Shown here: in pieces, positions 1,029-37,431 of the stretch
How the letters are laid out: every line of letters begins with the position of its first letter
Numbering within the stretch: the stretch's first letter is position 1
Origin: Candidatus Tectimicrobiota bacterium
GTDB lineage: Bacteria; Tectomicrobia; Entotheonellia; Entotheonellales; Entotheonellaceae
DNA length: 64,000 nucleotides
NCBI GenBank assembly: GCA_026005175.1
Contig: BPKO01000005.1
Coordinates: 124,001-188,000, forward strand
Direction: 5' to 3'
Notes under the pieces: generated by a model
Database searches by the model: none
The model's input: only the letters and a program-made list of their open reading frames with translations
Told to the model about the DNA's origin: nothing
Made by a program: the position numbers and the translations under genes

Positions 1029-1646
1029 ATGAGCACGCCCGTACGCATTGTGGCGTTTTCTGATTACCTGTGACCCTGGTGCTACCCGGCGGCGGTTCGC
1101 CTCCAGCGGTTGCACCAGCGCTACGGCGCGCGTATCCAGCTCGAGCACCGCGCCTTTCCGCTGCGCCCCCAGCCCGACGCCTCGGTGAAGTTTCAGGGGA
1201 CGTACCGCGAGGCGGCGTGGCAGCGCGCGGCGGCCCTGGCGGCGGCAGACGGGATCCGGTGGCGCATGTGGACTCGCGACGATTTTCCCCAGTGGAGCCT
1301 GCCGGCTCTGGAAGCGGCCAAGTGCGCGGCGCTTCAGGGGGAAGCGGCCTTTGCCGACATGAACCTGCGGCTGTTTCGGGGCTTTTTCGAGCAGGGGGTT
1401 AACATCGCCGAGCCCGAAGAGATCCTGACGCTGGCGCGGGAGGCGCCCTTGGATTACCCGCGCTTTGTCGACGACTTCCTGAGCGGCGGCATGCGCCAAG
1501 AGGTGCTGCGCGACTACGAAGAGGCGCTCACCCGCTACGCCGTGCACGCCATCCCCACCGTGGTCTTTGCCGAGCGCGAATGGGTGGTGGGGGCGGTGCC
1601 CTTGGCCAAGTACGAAGAGGTGCTGGCCAAGTTCGGCGTCACGTGA
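1029..1646 (+). CDS. DsbA/FrnE-family thioredoxin-fold oxidoreductase, probable selenoprotein (UGA = Sec15)
   Basis: The protein belongs to the DsbA/FrnE (2-hydroxychromene-2-carboxylate isomerase-like) thioredoxin-fold group, which catalyses thiol-disulfide exchange. From ATG 1029 the frame reads MSTPVRIVAFSDYL, then TGA (1071-1073), then PWCYPAAVRL and on without interruption to 1646. The TGA sits exactly where the first cysteine of the CPWC active site is expected, giving U15-P-W-C18. The cis-proline loop AIPTVVF (about residue 176) is intact, and the length (205 residues) is normal for the family. Its own promoter and ribosome-binding site precede it, and a hairpin compatible with a bacterial SECIS follows the TGA. 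No signal peptide is seen, so it is probably cytoplasmic. Gene finders would call only a truncated ORF from 1110. The alternative is a TGC-to-TGA sequencing error or nonsense mutation. Confidence 0.8.
1074..1106 (+). promoter_or_regulatory. Candidate bacterial SECIS hairpin immediately after the UGA codon
   Basis: An upper stem pairs GGCG (1091-1094) with CGCC (1098-1101), closing a GUU loop at 1095-1097. A lower stem pairs CUGG (1076-1079) with CCAG (1103-1106). The loop begins with G and lies 21 nt after the UGA, within the spacing known for bacterial SECIS elements bound by SelB. The region is GC-rich, so some pairing is expected by chance. Confidence 0.55.
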
Positions 1647-2312: not shown

Positions 2313-2331
2313 AGGAAGGACAGAGCAAGCC

Positions 2332-3396
2332 ATGACGTCGCACGAAGCCGCTGCCGGCCGCCTGCCGCCGCGGCAGCAGGTAACCCGCAAGTTTCCTGTG
2401 GTGGGTGAACGCCAGCCCTTGCCCGAAGCCCTTGACCTCGCGCGCTGGCGCTTGACCCTCGGGGGCGAGGTGGCCCGGCCCTTGGTCCTGACGTACGACG
2501 AGCTGCAGCGCCTGCCGCAGGTGGAAGTGACGGCCGACGTGCACTGCGTGACGCGCTGGTCCCGCCTGGGCGGCCGCTGGCGTGGGGTGGCCCTGCGCAC
2601 CCTGATAGAGCGGGTGCAGCCGCTGCCGGCGGCACGGTTTGTGCAGTTTCTGGCCTACTCGGCGCGCGGGCACGATTCTTCTCTGCCCTTGGAGGTGTGC
2701 CTGCACGAAGGGGTGCTACTGGCCTGGGCACTGGACGGCGAGCCACTGAGCGTGGCGCACGGCTACCCGCTGCGGGTGGTGGCGCCGACGCGCTACTTTT
2801 ATAAAAGCGTTAAGTGGGTGCGCGAGATCCGCTTTCTGGCCCGCGACGTGCTGGGGTACTGGGAGCGCGAAGGAGGCTACCACAACAACGCCGATTTCTG
2901 GCGAGAAGAGCGCTACGTGGCCGGCAACCTCAGCCCCCGCGAGGTGGCTCGCCTGCGGCGCACCGCCGACTTTCGCCTTTACCGCGGCCGGCCGCTGCTG
3001 TCGCTCGACTTGCGGCAGGCCGACTTTGCCGGGGCTGACTTGGCCGGGGTACAGTTGAAGAATTGCTGCCTTGCCGGGGCCAACTTGCGCGGGGCCAACC
3101 TGCGTGGCGCCAACCTCACCAATTCGGACTTGCAGGGGGCCGACCTGCGCGGCGCCGACCTCACCGGAGCGGACTTGGAAGGGGTGCTGCTCATGGGGGC
3201 CGACTTGCGCGGGGCGATCCTGCGCGGCACCCGCCTCGCGGCGGCCGAGTTCTGGCGTCCGGGACTGCCCCCGGCGCAGGTGGCTGGCCTTGACTTGCGC
3301 GGCGCCGCCCTTGAGGCGCTTCTCGAAGCGCAGCAACGCTTTTTGCGCGAGCAGGGCGTCCTGCCCGTCGCTTTCGCGAGCGGTCACGAGGAGTAG
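2332..3396 (+). CDS. Sulfite-oxidase-fold molybdopterin domain fused to pentapeptide repeats
   Basis: Residues about 15-195 resemble the oxidoreductase molybdopterin-binding (SuoX/YedY) fold. They include the cysteine expected to ligate molybdenum in DVHCVTRW, followed by WRGVALRTLIE and a conserved HGYPLRVVAPTRYFYKSVKWV segment. A tract of A(D/N)Lxx pentapeptide repeats follows (about residues 225-310: ADFAGADLAGV, ANLRGANLRGANL and so on), which should form a right-handed beta-helix. Start ATG 2332 has a good AAGGAAGG ribosome-binding site. No signal peptide is visible, although many YedY proteins are Tat-exported. The gene lies between nth and miaB with short gaps, in one apparent operon. 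Substrate and partner are unknown. The fusion itself is unusual and the repeats may be a protein-interaction module. Confidence 0.8.
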   Translation: MTSHEAAAGRLPPRQQVTRKFPVVGERQPLPEALDLARWRLTLGGEVARPLVLTYDELQRLPQVEVTADVHCVTRWSRLGGRWRGVALRTLIERVQPLPAARFVQFLAYSARGHDSSLPLEVCLHEGVLLAWALDGEPLSVAHGYPLRVVAPTRYFYKSVKWVREIRFLARDVLGYWEREGGYHNNADFWREERYVAGNLSPREVARLRRTADFRLYRGRPLLSLDLRQADFAGADLAGVQLKNCCLAGANLRGANLRGANLTNSDLQGADLRGADLTGADLEGVLLMGADLRGAILRGTRLAAAEFWRPGLPPAQVAGLDLRGAALEALLEAQQRFLREQGVLPVAFASGHEE

Positions 3397-35511: not shown

Positions 35512-37372
<1,861 letters not shown>

Positions 37373-37431
37373 CTCCCGCGTATGCAGTTGTGCGTTACTA
37401 TGTTAGCGCACGGCGCCAGGGCGGGCAAGTC

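Follow-up and report, generated by a model that had tools for sequence, protein, structure and literature searches.

A predicted FrnE-type selenoprotein with an in-frame UGA codon in its active site

The gene at positions 1029-1646 (plus strand) of the window, by which we mean the whole 64,000-nucleotide stretch of DNA analyzed here, very probably encodes a FrnE-type oxidoreductase of the DsbA/thioredoxin fold, predicted to be cytosolic, in which the UGA at codon 15 is decoded as selenocysteine (Sec) by the organism's own SelA, SelB, SelC, and SelD, with a downstream hairpin as the putative SECIS element. The assignment of the gene draws on its translation, a PF01323 match, and a fold match to FrnE.

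The interrupted frame and its surroundings

With TGA translated as U, the frame opens at an ATG (1029-1031), closes at a TGA (1644-1646), and contains one internal stop, the TGA at 1071-1073. The product is 205 amino acids long and begins MSTPVRIVAFSDYLUPWCYPAAVRL. The internal TGA occupies the first cysteine codon of a D-Y-L-[U/C]-P-W-C motif and is predicted to specify Sec15 of a U-P-W-C active site, in which Cys18 (codon at 1080-1082) is the second residue of the UxxC pair. The first-pass annotation, made from the DNA alone, had described a frame broken only by this TGA and had predicted a truncated call from 1110. Both statements were borne out, as the table-11 ORF list holds a 178-amino acid ORF that starts at TTG 1110 and leaves out the active site. 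Since table-11 calling strips the active site and no NCBIfam model scored above its cut-off for the window protein, genome annotations will probably overlook the enzyme or cut it short.

The gene had also been credited with its own TATAAT promoter and ribosome-binding site, and both sequences can be read directly on the plus strand. A purine-rich stretch, GGGAGGAGAGG, lies at 1016-1026, just 5′ of the ATG, and is a putative, strong ribosome-binding site. A possible -10 box, TATAAT, lies at 1004-1009, spaced 18 nt from a weak TTGTGC (980-985); TATAAT also occurs 5′ of the gene in a relative (G003). However, the TTGTGC/TATAAT pair fell below the threshold of a consensus promoter scan, and the promoter claim could not be strengthened.

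On its 5′ side the gene borders the end of ligA; on its 3′ side are an endonuclease III-like gene and then a molybdopterin oxidoreductase fused to pentapeptide repeats. G003 has these three genes (FrnE, endonuclease III, molybdopterin protein) in the same order, whereas a second relative, G004, does not, so little about function can be learned from the neighborhood. The fused protein itself (2326-3396) combines a PF00174 molybdopterin-binding oxidoreductase domain with pentapeptide repeats in a fusion that looks unusual, and G003 has a 71%-identical homologue of it at the same place. Elsewhere in the window, a TPP riboswitch lies at 37278-37389 on the minus strand (63.6 bits). A codon-usage scan of the window for more TGA-interrupted genes, insensitive enough to miss the TGA at 1071 too, gave no convincing case.

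Selenocysteine genes, homologues, and the downstream hairpin

The source assembly (4.0 Mb, 14 contigs, 77% complete) contains selA (638 bits), selB (391 bits), selD (379 bits), and a tRNA-Sec gene, selC (76.5 bits, anticodon TCA). These are the four genes that the first-pass annotation had proposed looking for in the same genome, and all are present. selA adjoins selB, and the tRNA-Sec gene is ~7 kb away on the same contig. The selD gene (G000:C9:120631-121554, minus strand) has one in-frame TGA of its own, in the context VACAG-U-ASKMS and followed by a hairpin, at what we take to be the SelD active site; it is probably a selenoprotein gene itself. By sequence, then, the organism's Sec set is complete, and it probably makes at least one selenoprotein besides the window protein. 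selB is present in all five genomes examined from the organism's phylum.

We read the codon aligned with position 15 in 110 homologues. It was TGA in 54, TGC or TGT in 56, and nothing else in any of them, the share of cysteine being inflated by search patterns for related loci that were built with Cys at this site. Thus position 15 is Cys or Sec throughout, in agreement with the earlier proposal that the TGA stands in place of the first CxxC cysteine, and the gene shows the in-frame UGA at a redox-active position, alternating with Cys, that marks predicted bacterial selenoproteins. Two of four relatives, both of the same class (G003 and G004), have a homologue, with 61% and 56% protein identity and TGA at the same codon. 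About 50 further TGA homologues came from Methylomirabilota (Rokubacteria) and Dehalococcoidia, in a search that covered one genome per species, 95 genomes from the phylum of the Rokubacteria homologue and 393 from the class of the Dehalococcoidia homologue. In the Methylomirabilota genomes examined, FrnE is mostly of the Sec form; in Dehalococcoidia, that form is patchy. One Rokubacteria genome encodes a Cys-form FrnE homologue together with a distant paralogue that has a TGA in its own UPWC motif (L088, G006:C131:21599-22201).

Conservation is concentrated around the UGA. Across the three class members, nucleotide identity is 86-97% over the 36 nt that begin with the UGA, compared to 52-62% for the remaining downstream part of the gene. 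Where residues are identical, the codon too is preserved more often inside the 36-nt stretch than outside it for two of the three pairs (P 0.001, 0.04, and 0.14).

Just 3′ of the UGA, folding predicts a hairpin (1076-1118) with a G in its apical loop, a putative bacterial SECIS element. GGCG (1091-1094) and CGCC (1098-1101) flank the loop GUU (1095-1097) within a longer, imperfect stem. A hairpin with a G-starting loop had been placed 21 nt downstream of the TGA; the loop does start there with a G, but this is the start of the loop and not the base of the hairpin. The segment 1066-1125 has a minimum free energy of -27.6 kcal/mol (z -2.2 against dinucleotide shuffles). Refolding, which the first-pass annotation had suggested as a check, thus recovers the hairpin, but its stability hardly exceeds that of synonymous variants encoding the same peptide (-10.6 versus -10.0), and no covariation could be shown. 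RNAalifold found little consensus structure among the homologues, and explicit pair counting found no compensatory changes, since the stem scarcely differs between homologues and a pairing register offset by one seems to be used by some of them. On its own, the hairpin of the window gene beats chance by only a modest margin and would not convince.

The comparative data carry the case. We counted as SECIS-like any hairpin that fitted simple bacterial-SECIS criteria with an energy of -6 kcal/mol or lower. Such a hairpin, with a G in the first two loop bases and at bacterial-SECIS distance, was found in 52 of 54 TGA homologues (96%) and in 57% of Cys homologues, and the excess over a synonymous-codon null was greater for TGA than for Cys forms (Mann-Whitney P 3e-5; relatedness not removed), both comparisons overstating independence since the sequences are related. 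In almost every Sec member, 19-21 nt separate the UGA from the start of the loop.

The distribution of selB points the same way in Dehalococcoidia. There, 17 of 18 Sec-form genomes had selB above the cut-off, compared with five of 10 Cys-form genomes and 12 of 20 genomes that had neither form; for the sampled genomes, Sec form versus Cys form or none is 17/18 versus 17/30 (Fisher P 0.0075). The contrast is available only in this class, as 84 of 95 Methylomirabilota genomes have selB over the cut-off and co-occurrence in that phylum is uninformative. Six Methylomirabilota assemblies with the TGA form gave no match to selB and are probably incomplete.

These results bear on three other readings of the UGA. 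TGA is one base away from TGC and TGT and the assembly is 77% complete, as would suit a sequencing error at a true cysteine codon or a dead gene. Yet many independent genomes, at identities of 30-61%, have TGA at this codon as well, and the frame is open and conserved on both sides of it. As the 61%- and 56%-identical homologues carry the TGA in independent assemblies, a miscalled base can for practical purposes be dismissed, and we judge that conservation in practice refutes both error and pseudogene, to which we attach almost no probability. None of the three findings that the first-pass annotation had said would refute its reading was observed. The chance that the UGA is a true stop, with a functional product of 178 residues from 1110 as in the table-11 annotation, seems to us just as negligible: the ORF from TTG 1110 is open, but its product would be without two parts that are invariant in every homologue, the first strand and the active site, whereas a ribosome-binding site and ATG lie 5′ of the UGA and the residues SDYL just before it are kept between species.

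Slightly less remote, though still very improbable, is that an opal-suppressor tRNA reads the UGA as Cys, or as some other amino acid, instead of Sec. Homologues do have Cys at the position, and unusual natural Cys and Sec tRNAs have been reported (PMC7609411). In this genome, however, the tRNA-Sec(UCA) is canonical and selA, selB, and selD are complete, and UGA ends both the window gene and ligA normally. The TGA-specific conservation, the downstream hairpins, and the association with selB fit decoding as Sec.

Predicted fold and proposed redox mechanism

Residues 7-199 match the Pfam family PF01323 (DSBA) with an E value of 4.9e-20. Sequence matches in the PDB are similar to one another (the YjbH-type GK0824, 1.1e-5; SCO1869 of S. 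coelicolor, 6e-5; D. radiodurans FrnE, 7e-5), so sequence alone does not single out FrnE. The AlphaFold model (pLDDT 95, pTM 0.91) has the order beta-alpha-beta, helical insertion, beta-beta-alpha. In a fold comparison, D. radiodurans FrnE structures took ranks 1-5 (Z 23-24 over about 200 residues), followed by 2in3, YjbH, SCO1869, GST kappa, and DsbM. Position 15 (Cys or Sec), Cys18, and the cis-proline Pro176 are invariant in the aligned homologues. The modeled protein thus combines the thioredoxin fold with helical insertion, the CxxC/UxxC pair, and the cis-proline of the DsbA family, and FrnE is its closest characterized protein by predicted fold, placing it in the FrnE subfamily. The DsbA/FrnE assignment made at first pass is therefore supported by Pfam, PDB sequence matches, and fold comparison alike.

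In the model, the first strand comprises residues 5-11 (E5-11) and the active site begins at residue 15. A signal peptide could not fit ahead of it, so a cytosolic location is most likely.

Judging from FrnE and other DsbA-family reductases of the cytosol, the protein is most likely a disulfide reductase or isomerase, with Sec15 as nucleophile and Cys18 as resolving residue. Once the UGA had been decoded by the genome's SelA, SelB, SelC, and SelD with the downstream hairpin as SECIS, the mature 205-residue enzyme would present its Sec-Pro-Trp-Cys site to Pro176. The Sec15 selenolate would attack a disulfide in a protein or small thiol, giving a mixed selenylsulfide; Cys18 would resolve this, leaving a Sec15-Cys18 selenylsulfide that a cellular thiol system would re-reduce. 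The C-terminal CXXXXC of D. radiodurans FrnE is absent after residue 170 in every aligned homologue, including the window protein, a point against this scheme as far as re-reduction is concerned.

The same selenoprotein might instead depend mainly on glutathione or another small molecule, in the manner of GST kappa or HCCA isomerase, and not be a protein disulfide reductase. Both of those enzymes share the fold, with Z scores of about 21 that come close to FrnE, and FrnE and the cytosolic reductase DsbM have been crystallized with GSH. However, the UxxC pair is kept, pointing to thiol-disulfide exchange, and FrnE structures rank first, if by only 2-3 Z units. We regard the glutathione-dependent function as unlikely and prefer the disulfide reductase or isomerase.

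A Sec-only clade and its relation to known proteins

A maximum-likelihood tree built from 109 homologues places the window protein in a clade of 33 sequences (support 100/99), all with Sec and mostly from the phylum to which the Rokubacteria genome belongs. Over the best tree, Sec and Cys exchanged at least seven times (the starred branches alone force two), compared to 36-37 times with shuffled labels; these roughly seven changes supply naturally occurring Sec/Cys pairs in which the reasons for retaining selenium could be studied. The clade, which is common in Methylomirabilota, has the invariant signature PWC[YF]PAAVRL plus FxGTxRE, and those of its residues that are absent from the Cys relatives include P20, F55, G57, T58, E61, W89, and A174. 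In the tree, the window gene clusters with Methylomirabilota sequences rather than with G004, a member of its own class, so the gene may have moved between phyla.

With more doubt than confidence, we suggest that the clade may be a distinct Sec-only FrnE subfamily (UPWC[YF]PAAVRL, FxGTxRE, and A174 before the cis-proline), with Sec kept across many species of at least two phyla for a dedicated cytosolic redox job absent from the Cys relatives. Another cysteine, Cys99, occurs in 30 of the 33 clade members and in 13 of 56 Cys-form homologues. Not being general, it is possibly an extra, third redox residue.

COG2761 corresponds to the FrnE group. A literature search for FrnE together with selenoprotein returned no relevant paper, and the connection runs through COG2761 in a 2005 study that found DsbA-like selenoproteins of that COG, with a UxxC motif, in the Sargasso Sea metagenome (PMC1088965). 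DsbA-like selenoproteins were counted in sequenced bacteria in 2006 (PMC1794560), and a 2026 review lists a "DsbA-like protein form 1" under PF01323 as well as a Methylomirabilota assembly with 63 predicted selenoproteins (PMC13188914). The window protein resembles the COG2761/PF01323 proteins in its domain, in having Sec for the first CxxC cysteine, and in having Cys-containing homologues. Its match to form 1 (e.g., NIP15863.1) is by description only, and its clade has its own PWC[YF]PAAVRL and FxGTxRE signature.

D. radiodurans FrnE is described as a cytoplasmic disulfide reductase whose C-terminal CXXXXC is proposed to help regenerate the active site; this motif occurs in many FrnE members but not all, and is not obligatory since S. 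roseofulvus FrnE lacks it (PMC8945050). The window protein resembles FrnE DR_0659 (PDB 5cnw, 5cp1, and 5xwh) in fold (Z 23-24, rmsd 2.7, 22% identity), in its CP(W/F)C-type site, and in its predicted cytosolic location. It differs in having Sec for Cys, in being shorter, and in lacking the CXXXXC. The same DsbA-type thioredoxin fold, helical insertion included, is seen in the cytosolic DsbM of P. aeruginosa and in YjbH, GST kappa, and HCCA isomerase (Z 20-23). Their identity to the window protein is 14-24%, and none of them is entered as a selenoprotein. No description of the breadth of the Sec form was found in the literature searched. The window gene thus belongs to a kind of selenoprotein on record since 2005 and widens its known range; what is modestly new is the well-supported clade, with Sec in all 33 proteins and FxGTxRE as its own motif, and how widely Sec is used in the two phyla.
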